The notes beneath the pieces are model-generated. The model did not search any database. It was not told where the DNA came from and saw only the letters and a list, made by a program, of their open reading frames with translations. Both the position numbers and the translations under genes were made by a program. Below are positions 37,625 to 52,524 of a DNA stretch of 64,000 bases, in pieces. The number at the start of each line of letters is the position of its first letter. The first letter of the stretch is position 1. This DNA is from Pseudomonadota bacterium (GTDB taxonomy: Bacteria; Desulfobacterota; Desulfovibrionia; Desulfovibrionales; Desulfovibrionaceae): positions 1-64,000 of the forward strand of contig JAHIUW010000041.1 in the NCBI GenBank assembly GCA_018816865.1, written 5' to 3'.

Positions 37625-38998
37625 ATGGATCAAACTCTCTACCTCATCGGACTCAACCACAAGACTGCGGGCGTCGAAATCCGCGAGTCCTATGCCCTGA
37701 CGGATTGCGATCCCCGGGCCTTGGGGCTCGTGACCGACACCGGCCCGGTTTCCGAAGCCGTCCTGCTTTCCACCTGCAATCGCGTGGAAATACTGGCTGT
37801 TGCGGATCCGGGCACACCCCCTGAGACCGTTCTTGAGTTCTGGGCAAAGGCCTGCGACGGCAACGTGAACACCCTTTCACCCCACGTCTATGTGCACACC
37901 GGCCTGGACGCCGTACGCCACCTGTTCACCGTGGCTTCCAGCCTGGACTCCATGATCATGGGCGAACCACAGATCCTGGGGCAGCTGAAGGACGCCTACC
38001 GCAACTCCGTGGAACACGGCACCTCGCGCGTGGTCCTGAACCGTCTGCTGCACAAGGCCTTCACCGTGGGCAAGCGCGTGCGCACCGAGACGGCCATCGC
38101 CTCATCGGCGGTGTCCATCAGCTATGCGGCCGTGGAGTTGGCCAAGAAGATCTTCGGCGACATGGGCGAGAACACCGCCCTGCTCATCGGTGCGGGCGAA
38201 ATGGCCGAACTGGCCGCCATGCATCTGGTCAACGCGGGCATCAAGGAAGTGCTGGTCTCCAACCGGACCTTCTCCCGGGCCGAGGAACTGGCCGGACGAT
38301 TCAAGGGCCGAGCCATCGAGTTCAGCGAGCTGTTGCAACGCCTGCCCGAGGCGGACATCATCATTTCCTCCACGGGCGCCACCGAGGCCATCATCCACGC
38401 CAAGGACATCAAGCCCGTGCTCAAGGCGCGCAAGAACCGGCCCATGTTCTTCATCGACATCGCCGTGCCACGCGACATCGACCCGGACGTCAACGCCCTG
38501 GACAACGTCTACCTCTACGACATCGACGATCTGAAGGAAGTGGTCGAGGAAAACATGGCCCAGCGCCGCGAGGAAGCCGTGAAGGCCGAAGCCATCATCG
38601 AATCCGAAACCTCGCGCTTCGCCCTGTGGCTGGAGTCCCTGGATTTGAAGCCCACCATCGTGGAACTTCTGGAACAAGGCCAGACAATCGGCCGCCGCGA
38701 ACTGGCCAAGACCCTGAAGCGCCTTGGCCCGGACCTGCCCCGGGAGACCGAGGAGGCCCTGGAAACACTGGTCGCCTCGCTGGTGCACAAGCTCTACCAC
38801 GAGCCCATCAATTTTCTGAAACGCCGCACCCAGGAAGAAGGCAAGGCCGAACGTTTCATCGACGCCACGCGCCGCATGTTCAACCTGGACCAGGAGCAGA
38901 TCCCCGGTGACGCCCACCTGGAGCGCAAGCCGGGCCTGGCCCGACAACGAGACTGTACGCTGCCCCCGGACGGGGGCGACATAGACGACGGGCAATAA
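37625..38998 (+). CDS. hemA: glutamyl-tRNA reductase
   Basis: 457 residues. Catalytic Cys in LLSTCNRVEI, His-containing GLNHKTAGVEIRE, the GEPQILGQLKDAY motif, NADPH-binding LIGAGEMAELAAMHLV and the C-terminal dimerisation helices ending LYHEPINFLKRRTQEE. It is the first committed step of tetrapyrrole synthesis. The last about 40 residues (QIPGDAHLERKPGLARQRD..) extend beyond the family core. Third gene of the sirC-like/hemX-like/hemA operon. Confidence 0.96.
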   Translation: MDQTLYLIGLNHKTAGVEIRESYALTDCDPRALGLVTDTGPVSEAVLLSTCNRVEILAVADPGTPPETVLEFWAKACDGNVNTLSPHVYVHTGLDAVRHLFTVASSLDSMIMGEPQILGQLKDAYRNSVEHGTSRVVLNRLLHKAFTVGKRVRTETAIASSAVSISYAAVELAKKIFGDMGENTALLIGAGEMAELAAMHLVNAGIKEVLVSNRTFSRAEELAGRFKGRAIEFSELLQRLPEADIIISSTGATEAIIHAKDIKPVLKARKNRPMFFIDIAVPRDIDPDVNALDNVYLYDIDDLKEVVEENMAQRREEAVKAEAIIESETSRFALWLESLDLKPTIVELLEQGQTIGRRELAKTLKRLGPDLPRETEEALETLVASLVHKLYHEPINFLKRRTQEEGKAERFIDATRRMFNLDQEQIPGDAHLERKPGLARQRDCTLPPDGGDIDDGQ

Positions 38999-39031
38999 AT
39001 AATGACCAACAACCTTGGATAATTAACAACA

Positions 39032-39149
39032 GGCCGTTCAAGAAGATGCACGTGCAAGGAGAATGATCAATCAAGACCGAGGCGTACTCTCACGTACGTC
39101 AGGATTTGATTATCACAACCACGCGGCAATCATGCACTCTTCAACAGCC
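39032..39149. repeat. nested-palindrome element, copy A
   Basis: Outer arms GGCCGTTCAAGA (39032-39043) and TCTTCAACAGCC (39138-39149), 10 of 12 pairs. Inner hairpin: AATCAA (39069-39074) with TTGATT (39106-39111), and CGTAC (39083-39087) with GTACG (39094-39098). Conserved tail GCAATCATGC (39126-39135) is identical to copy C. It lies between hemA and the small gene at 39175, oriented opposite to copy D. Confidence 0.8.
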
Positions 39150-39174
39150 GCCTATGATCAGAAGGACAGACAAG

Positions 39175-39510
39175 ATGCGTTCCTATATCATTGACGAACT
39201 CGCCACCGACGATCTGGAGCGTTTCCAGAAGCACCTGACCACCAAGACCGATCCTGCCTCCATGCAGGGCATTTTCTGGATGAACCTGCCAGAACACATG
39301 CTGAGTGCAGAGCAACGCGAGCACACCGGCGATTGCGGGCCCCACGCCTTTGGCATCGAGATCGGCGAGGACAGTGTGACCCTGGAACTGCTGGTGCGCG
39401 GCCGAGGACGGATGCGCTGCTCCTGCGTGACCTATGCGGATGCCGAGCAGCGCGCCTGGGGCATCGACGCCCTGGACTCGATGTTCAAGGAACTGGACAT
39501 CCCCGTTTGA
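39175..39510 (+). CDS. small cytoplasmic protein of unknown function
   Basis: 111 residues starting at ATG 39175 with AGAAGGA about 8 bases upstream. It is acidic (LATDDLERFQKHL, DELAT), with a Cys pair in RMRCSCVTYADAEQRAWGIDALDSMFKEL and a His/Cys stretch EHTGDCGPHAFGIEIGEDSVTLELLVRGRG. No signal or membrane segment. I do not recognise the family. It is bracketed by two copies of the nested-palindrome element (A upstream, D starting at the first base after its stop). Confidence 0.7.
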   Translation: MRSYIIDELATDDLERFQKHLTTKTDPASMQGIFWMNLPEHMLSAEQREHTGDCGPHAFGIEIGEDSVTLELLVRGRGRMRCSCVTYADAEQRAWGIDALDSMFKELDIPV

Positions 39511-39636
39511 CAGGAAGGGCATAAACGGCAACTTGCTTCGTTGCCTCAAAACGTTCAAACTCTTACGTATGGCATCAATACGCTGCGAGCTTGAACGTTT
39601 CTCGCGCCCCGCACCTCACCATTTCTGCCCTTCCTG
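39511..39636 (+). repeat. nested-palindrome element, copy D
   Basis: Begins at the base after the stop codon of the 39175 gene. Outer arms CAGGAAGGGCA (39511-39521) and TGCCCTTCCTG (39626-39636) are perfectly complementary. Inner stem AAACGTTCAA (39549-39558) with TTGAACGTTT (39591-39600) is perfect over 10 bp; apical CGTAT (39566-39570) pairs with ATACG (39578-39582). The tail, read on the minus strand, is GCAACGAAGCAA, as in copy C. It could also serve as a 3'-end structure; there is no U-tract. Confidence 0.85.
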
Positions 39637-39671
39637 TCTTCTAGGGTGAATGATTCACTACCGGAGACCCC

Positions 39672-43619: not shown

Positions 43620-44282
43620 TTAGGGTTTCAGCTTCTCCAGCATCTCCTCCTGAACAATCACCACCAGTTCGTCGCCCATGTTCAACACATCATCCGCGCC
43701 GGGCAGGTAGGTATAATCATTCTCGGCAGCTCCCGCCTTGCGCACAGCAACAACCTGCACTCTGAATTTCTTGGACAGGTCCAGATCACGCAGGGTCTTG
43801 CCCGCCCACTCATTCACAGTGAGCTTCTGCATCAGCACACCCTGACCGAACTGCATGTATTCGATGAGTCCCGGGTTGGTCAGCTGCAAGGCCACCTGAT
43901 GCGCGCCGTAGCGTTCCGGGAAAAAGACCTCGTCCCCGCCGATCTTGCGCAGCACCTTTTCGTGCTCCCAGGAGATGGCCTTGACCCAGACCTTGCCCAC
44001 CCCGAGTTCCTTCAGATGCAGGCAGATCAGGATGCTGGCCTCCATGGCCGATCCGACGCTGACCACCACGTTTTGCAACTCTGCAAACCCCAGCTGCTCC
44101 AGGACATTCTTGTCCATGGCATCGCCCTGATAGACCTGGGTCAAAGCCTCCTGGGCGCGGCGCACGTTGTCCGGGTTGCCATCCAGCCCCACCACCTGAT
44201 GCCCGAGCTCCATCAGTCGCTGGGCCAGGAAGAACCCGAATTTCCCCAGGCCGACCACTCCGATTTCAAGCTGATTATGCAT
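43620..44282 (-). CDS. KtrA/TrkA-type potassium uptake regulatory subunit (RCK domain)
   Basis: 220 residues. RCK-N Rossmann domain IGVVGLGKFGFFLAQRLMELGHQVVGLDGNP binding NAD(H) or ATP/ADP, then an RCK-C domain (LTVNEWAGKTLRDLDLSKKFRVQVVAVRKAG..LPGADDVLNMGDELVVIV). Single-RCK length is typical of KtrA. ATG 44282 has GGAG 8 bases upstream. It gates the membrane subunit encoded just upstream on the same strand (44459-45823); repeat copy B lies between the two genes. Confidence 0.9.
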   Translation of the reverse strand: MHNQLEIGVVGLGKFGFFLAQRLMELGHQVVGLDGNPDNVRRAQEALTQVYQGDAMDKNVLEQLGFAELQNVVVSVGSAMEASILICLHLKELGVGKVWVKAISWEHEKVLRKIGGDEVFFPERYGAHQVALQLTNPGLIEYMQFGQGVLMQKLTVNEWAGKTLRDLDLSKKFRVQVVAVRKAGAAENDYTYLPGADDVLNMGDELVVIVQEEMLEKLKP

Positions 44283-44334
44283 CGACTTTCTCCAATGGCT
44301 CAAATGAAATCATTCTCTCTATCTCTCTAGCACA

Positions 44335-44458
44335 CAGGATGATCAAAAGGGGGCGGATGCAAGGAGTAAGGAAGGATCAAGGTCGACGCGTACTCCACGT
44401 ACGCGAGAATTTGATCCTTCCGAAGCGACAACACAGATGTACCCTTTTCATCATCCTG
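44335..44458 (-). repeat. nested-palindrome element, copy B
   Basis: Outer arms CAGGATGATCAAAAGGG (44335-44351) and CCCTTTTCATCATCCTG (44442-44458), 16 of 17 pairs. Inner stem AAGGATCAA (44372-44380) with TTGATCCTT (44411-44419) is perfect; apical CGCGTAC (44387-44393) with GTACGCG (44399-44405) is perfect. Tail CGAAGCGACAAC follows the hairpin. The element ends at the base adjoining the stop codon of the minus-strand TrkH-like gene, the same polarity relative to its gene as copy D. Confidence 0.88.
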
Positions 44459-45823
44459 CTAGCCCATGGGCAGGCGCTTCTCCGGCCATAAAAACAGCTC
44501 CTTGCGTTGCATATCGTGCAGCAGGGAAATGAACACAATGGGTCCCAAACGGCCCACGAACATCAACACCGTGATCACCAGTTTGCCCGGCACGCTCAGG
44601 TGCGGCGTCAGGCCAGTGGACAGGCCCACCGTGGCAAAGGCGCTGACACATTCGAACAGGATTTCCAGGAACAGACCGCGAGTCTGATTGTGCGGCACGG
44701 CCCCGATCTCCGTAATGGACAGCAGCAGCGCGGACAGGCCGATGAAGACCATGCCGAACATGATCAGCGTCAGGGCATCGTTCATGCTGGCCTCGTCCAG
44801 GGCAAAGCGCTTCGCCACCACTGCCTGCTTACGCCCCCGCAGGCGCGCCAGGCAGAAGGCCACCAACGCCCTGAAGGTCGTCGTCTTGACGCCACCCGCG
44901 CACGATCCCGGCGAGCCGCCGATGAACATCAGGCCCATCATCACCAGCAGTGAGATATTGGTCAGCCCAGCGATGTTCATGGTGTTGAATCCGGCGGTAC
45001 GGCAGGTCACGGACTGGAAGACCGAGGCCAGAAATTCCTCGGCATGGGAAAATTGCCCCTGGTGCAGGGCGAATTCGGCCAAAAAGATGAACAGAGTCCC
45101 ACCCGCGATGAGCCAGAAGCTGGTGGAGAGCACGATCCGGGTGTGCCAGGACAGACACTGAACCCGGGCAGCGCGGTCCCGCAGACGGATGCGCCCCACC
45201 CGCTCGGCCAGTTCCAGCAGCACCGCAAAGCCCAACCCTCCCAGCACGATGAGCACCATGAAGGTCAGATTGACCCCCGCATGGGTCTTCCAGGCCACCA
45301 GGCTGTCACCCTGCAGGGCAAAGCCCGCATTGCAGAAGGCGGAGACCGCATGGAACAACGCTGAAAACGGGTCGAAGGCCACGGGATCGAAGAGGTGCAG
45401 GCTCAAGGCGCCCAGCAGTTCCAGCAGCAGACAGGCCAGCACCACTTGGCGCAAAAAGCTCACCATACTGAAGGTCGGGTCGTGTAGCAGGGTCTGGCGC
45501 ATGGCCAGCCGGTCCGAGAGGGAGATCCGCCGACGCCAGAGCAGGAACAACAGGCTGGAATAGGTCATGATGCCCAGCCCGCCCAGCTGGATCAATCCCA
45601 GGATCACTCCATGCCCTGTGGAGGTGAAAAAGGTCCCCGTGTCCACCACGGCCAAGCCGGTGACGCAGACGGCGGATGTGGCGGTGAACAGGGCGTCCAC
45701 CACGGACAGCCCACCACCCGCCTGGCAGGCGTCGAGCAGTAACAGCCCCGTCCCAACCACAATGGCCAGGGCGAAACCGAAGATGAGCATCAGGGAAGGG
45801 GAACCATGTTTAAACAGTCTCAT
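44459..45823 (-). CDS. KtrB/TrkH-family potassium uptake membrane subunit
   Basis: 454 residues, about ten membrane segments arranged as four M-P-M repeats. Selectivity-filter loops: SAVCVTGLAVVD, SAFCNAGFALQ, CRTAGFNTMN and SAFATVGLSTGLT, each with the filter glycine. Together with the KtrA-like protein it would form a Ktr-type potassium channel. The start ATG 45823 is favoured (MRLFKHGSPSLML) over TTG 45844; neither has a strong Shine-Dalgarno. Confidence 0.92.
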   Translation of the reverse strand: MRLFKHGSPSLMLIFGFALAIVVGTGLLLLDACQAGGGLSVVDALFTATSAVCVTGLAVVDTGTFFTSTGHGVILGLIQLGGLGIMTYSSLLFLLWRRRISLSDRLAMRQTLLHDPTFSMVSFLRQVVLACLLLELLGALSLHLFDPVAFDPFSALFHAVSAFCNAGFALQGDSLVAWKTHAGVNLTFMVLIVLGGLGFAVLLELAERVGRIRLRDRAARVQCLSWHTRIVLSTSFWLIAGGTLFIFLAEFALHQGQFSHAEEFLASVFQSVTCRTAGFNTMNIAGLTNISLLVMMGLMFIGGSPGSCAGGVKTTTFRALVAFCLARLRGRKQAVVAKRFALDEASMNDALTLIMFGMVFIGLSALLLSITEIGAVPHNQTRGLFLEILFECVSAFATVGLSTGLTPHLSVPGKLVITVLMFVGRLGPIVFISLLHDMQRKELFLWPEKRLPMG

Positions 45824-45988
45824 GGCTTCGGGATATACGCCCAACCCAGCGGGGTGTAAACGTATTGAGGTGGTATGTCCCTGGGAAAACGGGTGGTGTT
45901 ACGCCAGTGCAGAACTGGCTGCGACGACTCTCGCACAACAAGATTCCCCAACGGCGGGCCCCTTCTCGCGGGTCTGGCGTACGAGAGC

Positions 45989-49412: not shown

Positions 49413-49538
49413 AGAGGCCATTCAAAAATGGATGAGTGCCAGGCGCAAGGGAAAGCCAAGGCCGACGCGTATCTACTCATACGCGAGGATTTGGAATTCC
49501 CGCAGCAACGAAGCAATCATGCGGTTTTCAGCGGCCTA
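49413..49538 (-). repeat. nested-palindrome element, copy C
   Basis: Outer arms 49413-49438 and 49514-49538 are imperfectly complementary (shared pattern AGGCC-x2-T-x-AAAA-x2-G-x-ATGA). Inner stem: GGAA and CCAA (49450-49453, 49456-49459) pair with TTCC and TTGG (49497-49500, 49491-49494); apical CGCGTAT (49466-49472) pairs with ATACGCG (49479-49485). Tail GCAACGAAGCAATCATGC (49504-49521). It ends at the stop codon of the minus-strand glyS. Confidence 0.82.
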
Positions 49539-51629
49539 CTAGACCTGCAAGGCCGAGAAATCGGCCAGCCGACCCAGGCGTGAAACCAGGGCCTGCAAAA
49601 GATTCAAGCGGTTCAGGCGCAGGGTATCGTCCTCGCACATGACCATCACACCGTCAAAGAAGGCATCCACATCCGGACGCAGTTCGCCCAGCAGACCCAG
49701 CAGGCTTGCAAAATCAGCCTCGGCCCACAACTTGTCCCAGGTGGGAGCGATTTCATCCAGGTGGGAAGCCAAGGCCTTTTCCTGATCCTCCTCGAACAGG
49801 GAGGGATCATAGCCGCCAGTCAGTGTGACGCCCTCGGCGCCTCCCTGCTTGACGATGATGTTGGCAGCCCGCTTGAAGGTCAGCACGGCCTGCTGGAAAT
49901 CATCGCGACGACTGAATTCCGCCAGGGCCTCGATGCGCCTGGCCAGGGCGCACAGATCGGAGAACCCGGCCCCCAGGGCGGCCTCGACCACCAGGGTCTC
50001 GAAGCCCTTGCCCGTGAAGTAGGCCTTCAGGCGGCCAGCAAAAAAGTCCATCAGCTGGGCATGAATCTCTTCAGGCTCCAGCTTCCAGTTGATACCCTTG
50101 TAGGTGTCCTGCGCGGCCTTCAGCAGCTGGCCAAGGTCAATCTTCAGGTCGAAGTCCAGCACGATGCGAATGATGCCCAGGGCGGCACGGCGCAGTGCAT
50201 ACGGGTCGTTGGCACCTGTGGGCACCTTGCCCAGGCCAAAGCATCCGGCCAGGGTATCGGCCTTGTCCGCCATGGACAGGATGGCTCCGCACAAGCTCGA
50301 AGGCACAGGACTTCCAGGTCCGGCAGGCAGATACTGCTGGTACAGAGCGTCGGCCACGGCCTTGGACTCGCCCCGTCTGGCGGCATAAATGCCCCCCATG
50401 AGACCCTGGAGTTCGTCGAACTCGCCCACCATCCCGGACAACAGATCGGCCTTGGACAGACGACCAGCGCGGGCGGCATCGGCCTTGAGGGACGGATCGA
50501 TCCGTTCACCCAGATCGGCGCAAAGGATTTCCAGACGGCGGGTCTTATCACCCGTGCTGCCCAGGCCCTTCAGATAGATGACGTTGTCCAGTCCGGACAG
50601 CCAGTCATTCACCTCGGCAGCCAAATCGGTCTTCCAGAAGAATCGGGCGTCTTCCAGACGGGCGCGTAGTACGCGTTCCCAGCCCTTCTTGACCAAGGAC
50701 CGATCCTTGGGTTCCAGGTTCAAGGTGGAGATGAAGTGCGGCAGGAGCGTCCCGTCAGGGGCCTCCACGCCGAAGCTCTTCTGATGACTCTCCATGCTCG
50801 TCAACAGCACCTCGCGGGGCACTTCCAGGAACGAGGAGTCGAAGTCACCGAGGATGACCACGGGGGTCTCCACAAGCCCCACGACCTCGATCATCAGATC
50901 GTCCTTCCAGACAACGGAGCCACCCACTGCGGCAGCCAGTTCGTTGGCCTGCCTGCGGATGATGTCGCTGCGCTCATCGCGGCTGAGCACGACCTTGCAT
51001 TGCTCCCGGATCACGTCCTGATACGCGGCTGCGGCGGGCACTTCGAAGGGGCCTGGGCCGTGCACACGGTGCCCGCATGTCCTACGGCCAGACCTGATTC
51101 CGGCCACCTCGAAATCGACGACCTGCTCGTCCAGCAGGGCCAGGAGCCACTGGATGGGGCGGCCGAAACCGAAGTCGCCCGAGCCCCAGCGCATCTTCTT
51201 GGGAAACTGCAGGCCAGCGATGGCGGCCACGCAGATGCCGGGCAACAGGTCGATGCTCGTCCCGCCGCCCATGGTCTTCCTGACGGCCAGGTACTCGCCC
51301 TTGTCCGAGGTCTGGATGAAGCAGTCCGCGATGTCCACGCCCTGGGTCTTGGCAAAGCCCAAGGCCGCCTTGGAGGGCTGACCATCCTCGCCAAAGGCGA
51401 TGCGCCTGGGCGGGCCGGAGACAAGCTCCTCCTCACTACGCTGGGTCTGGGCCAAGCCATCGGCCACAACAACCACGCGCCGCGGCGTGGTGAAGGTCTC
51501 GACGGACTCGAACCCGATCAGAGCCTCTGTCAGACCCTTGCCGACGGCCTGCCCCAGGTCGTCGGACAACTTGGGGAAAAATCGCGCCGGGAGTTCCTCG
51601 GTGCCTATCTCAAGAATGAATATCGACAT
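49539..51629 (-). CDS. glyS: glycine-tRNA ligase beta subunit
   Basis: 696 residues, usual length. N-terminal ILEIGTEELPARFF, the tetrameric GlyRS beta signatures (GPPRRIAFGEDGQPSKAALGFAKTQG, PKKMRWGSGDFGFGRPIQWLLAL, MESHQKSFGVEAPDG) and a C-terminal DALR anticodon-binding region. It pairs with the alpha subunit encoded 25 bases upstream. The frame is open further to 51785, but the extension overlaps glyQ and has no homology. Confidence 0.96.
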   Translation of the reverse strand: MSIFILEIGTEELPARFFPKLSDDLGQAVGKGLTEALIGFESVETFTTPRRVVVVADGLAQTQRSEEELVSGPPRRIAFGEDGQPSKAALGFAKTQGVDIADCFIQTSDKGEYLAVRKTMGGGTSIDLLPGICVAAIAGLQFPKKMRWGSGDFGFGRPIQWLLALLDEQVVDFEVAGIRSGRRTCGHRVHGPGPFEVPAAAAYQDVIREQCKVVLSRDERSDIIRRQANELAAAVGGSVVWKDDLMIEVVGLVETPVVILGDFDSSFLEVPREVLLTSMESHQKSFGVEAPDGTLLPHFISTLNLEPKDRSLVKKGWERVLRARLEDARFFWKTDLAAEVNDWLSGLDNVIYLKGLGSTGDKTRRLEILCADLGERIDPSLKADAARAGRLSKADLLSGMVGEFDELQGLMGGIYAARRGESKAVADALYQQYLPAGPGSPVPSSLCGAILSMADKADTLAGCFGLGKVPTGANDPYALRRAALGIIRIVLDFDLKIDLGQLLKAAQDTYKGINWKLEPEEIHAQLMDFFAGRLKAYFTGKGFETLVVEAALGAGFSDLCALARRIEALAEFSRRDDFQQAVLTFKRAANIIVKQGGAEGVTLTGGYDPSLFEEDQEKALASHLDEIAPTWDKLWAEADFASLLGLLGELRPDVDAFFDGVMVMCEDDTLRLNRLNLLQALVSRLGRLADFSALQV

Positions 51630-51654
51630 TCGTTCGTCCTTCTCGCTTGTCGCC

Positions 51655-52524
<870 letters not shown>

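Follow-up and report, generated by a model that had tools for sequence, protein, structure and literature searches.

The described elements closest to the hairpin family reported here are the ERIC/IRU sequences of enterobacteria, which are MITE-like and about 127 bp long, and which passages of PMC2229807, on Yersinia, and of PMC10969869 present as transcribed together with genes and as affecting upstream mRNA in an orientation-dependent manner. As far as descriptions can be compared, our family differs from them in its clade, its 4-bp NTAN target duplication, its single long hairpin and its rule of lying flush with stop codons in the sense of the gene. The REP sequences of E. coli are likewise palindromes adjoining stop codons, and an earlier study, as cited in PMC12306157, reported ribosome stalling and lower translation where REP lies within 15 nt of the stop. 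According to the relevant passage of PMC3733652, however, REP units measure 20-40 bp, whereas the present units, at ~127 nt, lie outside this REP/BIME size, show mobility of the TIR/TSD type and mostly have a spacing of 0 nt. The Correia/NEMIS and RUP MITEs are small non-autonomous elements too; RNase III cleaves transcripts that contain Correia elements, and RUP target sites contain TA (passages of PMC2229807 and PMC10969869), but their hosts are others, and the passages compared describe no stop-flush sense rule.

Intrinsic terminators also place a hairpin at the 3′ end of genes, and genes carrying our element have fewer other such terminators downstream. They consist, however, of a GC-rich hairpin followed by a U-tract, whereas no U-tract stands behind the present hairpin, and roughly one at-stop copy in three retains a T-tract within the 3′ arm. 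Judged by description, the family may resemble ERIC or stop-proximal REP in its working. Integron attC sites were considered as an identity and set aside. Among the publications listed by our literature searches, none dealt with this family. Scanning the window with Rfam 15 at the gathering score returned a single match, a tRNA, and none to the elements; at E ≤ 5, four element loci gave two matches far below the gathering score, to microRNA and snoRNA families.

The elements of the window and their family

The window, a stretch of 64,000 nt, carries four copies (A-D) of one family of ~127-nt hairpins (Table 1). The initial annotation had proposed that three of them begin at stop codons with a fixed polarity, and this is borne out: the TGA of the small ORF, with which copy D is flush, is followed directly by CAGGAAGGGC; copy B opens on the final base of the TAG that ends the TrkH/KtrB-like gene; copy C adjoins the TAG of glyS; and all three share the orientation of their gene, the 5′ arm being next to the stop. 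Copy A, singled out there as an exception lying upstream of the small ORF, is indeed one, located 22 nt before the ATG of that ORF and, in addition, antisense to hemA, whose stop lies 30 nt away on the other side.

Table 1. Coordinates of the hairpin elements and adjoining genes within the window.
Feature	Coordinates	Strand	Remark
Glutamyl-tRNA reductase (hemA)	37625..38998	+	3′ end facing copy A
Copy A	39029..39152	-	Antisense element
Small ORF	39175..39510	+	111 aa, without Pfam match, upstream of copy D
TGA stop	39508..39510	+	Adjoined by copy D
Copy D	39510..39637	+	~127-nt hairpin element; covariance-model match; gene sense
Minus-strand gene	43620..44282	-	Own ORF call; TAA stop without element in the window
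Copy B	44334..44459	-	Sense element at TAG of TrkH/KtrB-like gene
TrkH/KtrB-like potassium transporter	44459..45844	-	Stop adjoined by copy B
Copy C	49413..49539	-	Sense element adjoining glyS TAG
Glycyl-tRNA synthetase beta subunit (glyS)	49539..51785	-	Stop adjoined by copy C

In a congener (G001), copies B and C each have an orthologous element. The orthologue of copy D, at 972852, is a partial match and adjoins a TAA; identity between the two genomes is 0.88 over copy D, partial as it is in G001, vs 0.82 for the 150 nt upstream. The counterpart of copy A is much shortened. The minus-strand gene whose TAA is free of an element in the window ends in G001 with a TGA that carries one, at 969526, which makes this an insertion difference within the window.

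A search of the whole genome with copy D returned 25 DNA matches, a count that takes in the self-match, the match to its reverse strand and some weak matches. Fifteen aligned sequences fold into a single long, imperfect hairpin; it has 40 pairs, and 33 of these have changed on both sides; pairing cells make up 92.7%, against 78.5% in shuffles, the observed covariation was reached by none of 500 shuffles, and the body of the hairpin contains conserved internal-loop bases. With a covariance model, we found at least 134 matches at E ≤ 1 in the genome of the window (G000), that is, at least 133 places after removal of a second-strand match, and at least 127 matches in at least 125 places at E ≤ 0.01 in G001; the thresholds of the two lists thus differ, and the copy numbers are lower bounds, at most 150 candidates per genome having been scored in the first look.

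Additional modules occur in some copies, one of ~52 nt at the apex and another of ~65 nt within the 5′ internal loop, seen at L014 (the G000:C33:11870 region) and, in G001, near 1707686 and in the 2815-2835 kb stretch; sequences similar to these modules occur at unrelated loci. At 17 places in G000 and G001, two elements lie no more than 40 nt apart, in all 17 on the same strand and head to tail.

Placement at stop codons

The stretches fetched from the two genomes cover 243 of the 258 places (15 lie outside them). Base rates are conditional, as each stretch was selected for containing elements; gene ends were taken from our own codon-score ORF caller. Counts were pooled over the genome of the window and the congener at bits ≥ 40, leaving out elements separated from the gene by another element (20/193 sense, 28/102 antisense). 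Sense elements facing a gene 3′ end start at -4 to +1 of the stop in 112 of 173 cases and at -25 to +10 in 156, and all 74 antisense elements are more than 20 nt away from the stop that they face. At least 72 loci are common to both genomes, so the independence assumed by pooled p-values is overstated; taken singly, and where both neighbours are known, the genomes have the start at -4 to +1 in 55/86 and 55/82. In 17 of the 173 sense elements the stop lies inside the outer stem (-25 to -7), several using the TGA of the element's own TTGAAAA. Altogether, 154 of the 229 classed copies are in sense at a stop; a count made per genome gives 76 and 77 sense-at-stop elements.

With rare exceptions the elements are intergenic: an overlap of more than 60 nt with a gene occurs in 1/130 in the genome of the window and 0/113 in G001, and a position between divergent genes in 1/122 and 0/112, respectively. 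Between tandem genes, they are in gene sense in 66/85 and 63/79. A preference for convergent genes was considered and rejected, since nothing goes beyond the 3′-end numbers: elements of G001 lie in 79 tandem and 33 convergent spacers, and its junctions comprise 414 tandem and 75 convergent ones, so that convergent ends make up 27% of all 3′ ends.

A second class is antisense. In 23 antisense copies the 5′ arm lies less than 60 nt from, or overlaps, the start of the next gene, and 15 of these are found 7-15 nt before that start, against the ribosome-binding site; copy A, at 22 nt, is near this class. A truncated copy in another genome, L242 (G025:979679), has its right end at the stop of a facing gene, in antisense.

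Mapping the genomic copies relative to stop codons and strand thus reveals both the stop enrichment and the strand bias that the initial annotation had set up as its test, and placement at stops with sense polarity is supported genome-wide and at orthologous stops of the congener. That annotation, correct on these two points, was without the mobile origin of the family, its fork-linked orientation in the congener and the antisense class before ribosome-binding sites.

Mobile origin and distribution in the phylum

A genome of the same order (G025) has 16 full-length copies that share at least 98.5% identity across 151 bp; 4-bp target duplications flank 14 of these, and all 14 conform to NTAN. 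Imperfect terminal inverted repeats are present in G025 (CAGTCCGTTGAAAAA / CTGAGTGTTGAAAAA) and at L014 in the genome of the window, and in mobile copies the inner hairpin lies between A-rich and T-rich tracts. One copy in the genome of the window, located at a TAG stop, retains the right end and a duplicated TTAG, and one insertion there has an empty site in G001, where a TAG stop is followed at once by the ribosome-binding site of the next gene. Among the old copies of G000 and G001, the right-end motif persists in at most 4 of 243, and no target duplication was detectable in 70 at-stop copies. The family is a MITE by kind: its 127-nt core, or 151 bp in the full mobile copy, is too short for a transposase, copies are many, and the terminal inverted repeats and target-site duplication come from the mobile copies. 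Searching four genomes for the end pattern brought up sites without a typical copy, and the two of these that were read proved to be damaged copies and not an autonomous element; further G025 sites were scanned for element copies alone.

The near-identical copies of G025 may give a view of placement at an early stage. Ten of the 16 lie away from stops, three in sense at stops (two flush) and three in antisense (two flush). Among 57 other G025 rows, which are BLAST rows with a few copies split in two, 18 are flush in sense (one of them also facing an antisense stop), six more lie in sense nearby and three are antisense. Flush sense placement does not differ significantly between the near-identical copies and the rest, either against the left-end rows (2/16 vs 18/48, p 0.07) or against all other rows (2/16 vs 18/57, p 0.2); the sense-to-antisense ratio is 3:3 vs 24:3 (p 0.06). 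These contrasts are no more than suggestive. The GC skew of the sampled G025 loci is weak and irregular.

Matches occur in 16 of 29 relatives and in 41 of 148 sampled genomes of the phylum, the genome of the window being included in both counts. The placement recurs in G058 and G044, which belong to two other families of the phylum: of the copies examined, 6/8 and 6/7, respectively, are in sense at stops, the seventh G044 copy adjoining two stops of opposite strands; G021 has 3/8. Sets that are near-identical by eye are placed differently, with 3 of 26 scored copies at stops in G004 and 1 of 6 in G162. The G044 copies are also alike by eye, yet at stops, so youth alone does not decide placement, and target habits may differ between variants (G004 and G162 vs G044). 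The ORF caller had little training sequence for G021, G058, G044 and G162, and five of the 60 loci of this phylum scan were skipped because their length did not suit an uncut locus.

The elements of G162 share the core and have different ends (GATGGCACCGTAAAAAG...) and, by eye, a longer duplication, whereas those of G025 end in CAG... with 4-bp NTAN. Among named records, the core occurs in MAGs of Desulfonatronospira and Desulfonatronovibrio and in a single MAG labelled Tepidibacillus. In the latter, Tepidibacillus decaturensis BL5_bin.8, six contigs carry the core (L276-L278, L280, L283, L284), through either mis-binning or transfer.

Proposed retention at stops

Our main reading, which we hold at a probability of about 0.47, is that a mobile hairpin inserts independently of stop codons and is retained at stops in gene sense for a 3′-end function. 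A MITE-type family whose body is a long imperfect hairpin would insert at NTAN with a 4-bp duplication, as the related genome G025 exhibits, and would not aim at stops. Copies that land in gene sense on a TAA or TAG stop, at its TA, would be kept, because the transcript then has a strong hairpin right behind the place where the ribosome stops. Such a process could leave the state seen in the genus of the window, where nearly all copies are without right end and duplication and about two thirds are in sense at a stop. On transcripts lacking an intrinsic terminator, the hairpin may at that position act as a 3′-end exonuclease barrier or be a site of processing by an RNase, and its arms would then co-evolve, possibly aided by DNA-level copying between them.

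A doubtful but serious competitor is that the copies are idle and owe their position to insertion bias and survivorship: insertion at NTAN, perhaps oriented by the replication fork, would leave the TA of a stop codon as the least harmful site in a gene-dense genome. The NTAN duplications agree with such an account, as does the over-use of TAG among adjoined stops (TAG/TAA/TGA 87/43/26, n = 156, vs 396/278/230 among all called genes). So does orientation in G001, where, with replichores set by the GC skew of the sampled stretches, the sense of the element is that of the leading strand in 94 of 118 cases, and genes on the leading strand carry a sense element at their stop with 3.3 times the odds of lagging-strand genes (62/323 vs 17/251, p 1.5e-5). 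Chance insertion at TA nevertheless falls short: if any TA of the spacer could be hit, then among the 112 elements that start at -3 or later and whose stop is TAA or TAG, 24.5 would be expected at the TA of that stop, and 85 are there. The near-identical G025 copies, moreover, show both orientations near stops and lie mostly elsewhere, and neutral copies should lose their pairing between species just as the right end has decayed, yet the pairing is kept. Since the G025 contrast is weak and G044, with copies alike by eye and at stops, speaks against a simple division into young and old, retention is weakened and survivorship strengthened; we still consider retention, not targeting, the likelier cause of the stop rule.

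The leading-strand preference itself is unexplained by a reading in terms of mRNA, and it extends to elements of G001 away from stops, 23 of 29 of which have leading-strand sense. In contig G001:C1 the sign of the GC skew of the sampled stretches changes near ~2.935 Mb and ~1.195 Mb; the better of two DnaA-like matches in G001 is at 254 kb and the second at 2.935 Mb.

Conservation and pairing of the arms

Between the two species, 72 loci could be paired one-to-one, 58 of them via both flanks; at least one pair (C31:134015) is probably mixed up with a neighbouring copy. An orthologous partner exists for 106 of 154 sense-at-stop copies vs 35 of 75 of the rest (p 0.0015; p 0.024 against antisense copies alone), both members of a pair being counted; 7 of 236 rows were dropped as they had no neighbour class. 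Among the 20 pairs whose identity is 84% or higher, both sides have changed in 40 cells, 34 of them from one Watson-Crick pair to another, where 12.8 two-sided changes of any kind would be expected from independent arms. Mean identity is 0.78 over all pairs vs 0.71 for random members, so that the less similar orthologues, differing nearly like random members, give an unclean test of co-evolution.

A helix selected in sense RNA is expected to tolerate G.U better than A.C. Among 9105 pair cells of 236 copies, G.U occurs 279 times vs 443 for A.C, or 215 vs 253 with six pair columns left out, which were set aside by eye after the data had been seen. In sense-at-stop copies A.C outnumbers G.U (294 > 159, p 2e-10), and it still does so without the six columns (162 > 121, p 0.017). 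These counts were made on alignments that lean to the structure of the model (A2, the best 150 of 155 matches, and A3). Part of the imbalance tracks the replication strand: in G001, again without the six columns, G.U/A.C is 110/100 for leading-strand copies vs 13/33 for lagging ones (p 0.003), a difference that looks like a replication-strand mutation bias. Selection on plain RNA was rejected for want of a G.U excess and because of this strand component. Pairing is maintained, but the pattern is not the one that selection for a helix in the sense RNA would usually be expected to leave.

This pattern leaves room for an explanation that we consider unlikely, in which the arms are matched at the DNA level by template switching or gene conversion within the palindrome or by a protein binding the extruded hairpin, leading-strand orientation reflects the single-stranded strand at the fork, and the gene-sense rule is secondary. 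G.U not exceeding A.C is in keeping with it, it accommodates the leading-strand bias away from stops, and paired indels are visible between the orthologous arms of one displayed pair (C20:36842 vs G001:1206970). Template switching, however, should erase internal mismatches, yet by eye these recur in other families of the phylum, and the explanation gives no reason why antisense elements near a facing stop are absent (0/74).

Transcript ends

A 3′-UTR role in mRNA end protection, termination or processing, as the initial annotation had suggested, is consistent with what lies downstream. Intrinsic-terminator-like sites are found within 150 nt past the element in 20/153 cases vs 59/203 for the comparison set (p 0.0003), and tandem spacers have, with the element removed, a median of 171.5 nt (n = 102) vs 49 nt (n = 469); fewer terminators and long spacers suggest that the elements stand at the ends of transcription units. 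The flush position in gene sense suggests, short of proof, that the cell uses the hairpins at mRNA ends.

The termination part of that suggestion fares worse. A portable transcription terminator, formed by the inner hairpin and the T-tract of the 3′ arm, is highly improbable: the scarcity of other terminators downstream and the A-rich and T-rich tracts around the inner hairpin of mobile copies speak for it, but the T-tract (at least 5 of 6) is kept in 52 of 154 at-stop copies, no better than in antisense ones (20/39), and a T-rich run follows within 12 nt behind the element in 4 of 153. We rejected intrinsic termination as the selected function on these grounds, the T-tract being poorly kept and no U-tract standing behind the hairpin.

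The first dozen bases behind the hairpin are rich in G and A. Because of this composition, the missing T-run and the terminator deficit, we favour, from sequence, a hairpin that would protect or process transcripts ended by other means. Rho, for example, could be such a means. The flush spacing, by analogy with stop-proximal REP and with ERIC in Yersinia, points to a coupling with the terminating ribosome.

Implications

Retention for a 3′-end function draws on stop polarity, the terminator deficit, better conservation, compensatory changes in the stem and the repetition of the placement in G058 and G044. It has to contend with the A.C excess, the off-stop leading-strand bias, the non-significant G025 contrast and the discord between G044, G004 and G162.

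A broader proposal is possible, although we put it forward tentatively and think it less likely than not: that a phylum-wide hairpin core, carried by mobile elements with different ends, has repeatedly been installed and kept as a standard mRNA 3′-end module, zero bases past the stop, where it replaces terminators. If this were true, the repeats of this phylum, which going by the named matches includes sulfate reducers, would be a transposon-supplied 3′-UTR system and not stray repeats. Many insertions of one mobile hairpin can here be compared with older, decayed copies massed in one orientation and at one position, which opens to direct test whether palindromic repeats of small size are mere junk or functional parts of 3′ UTRs.
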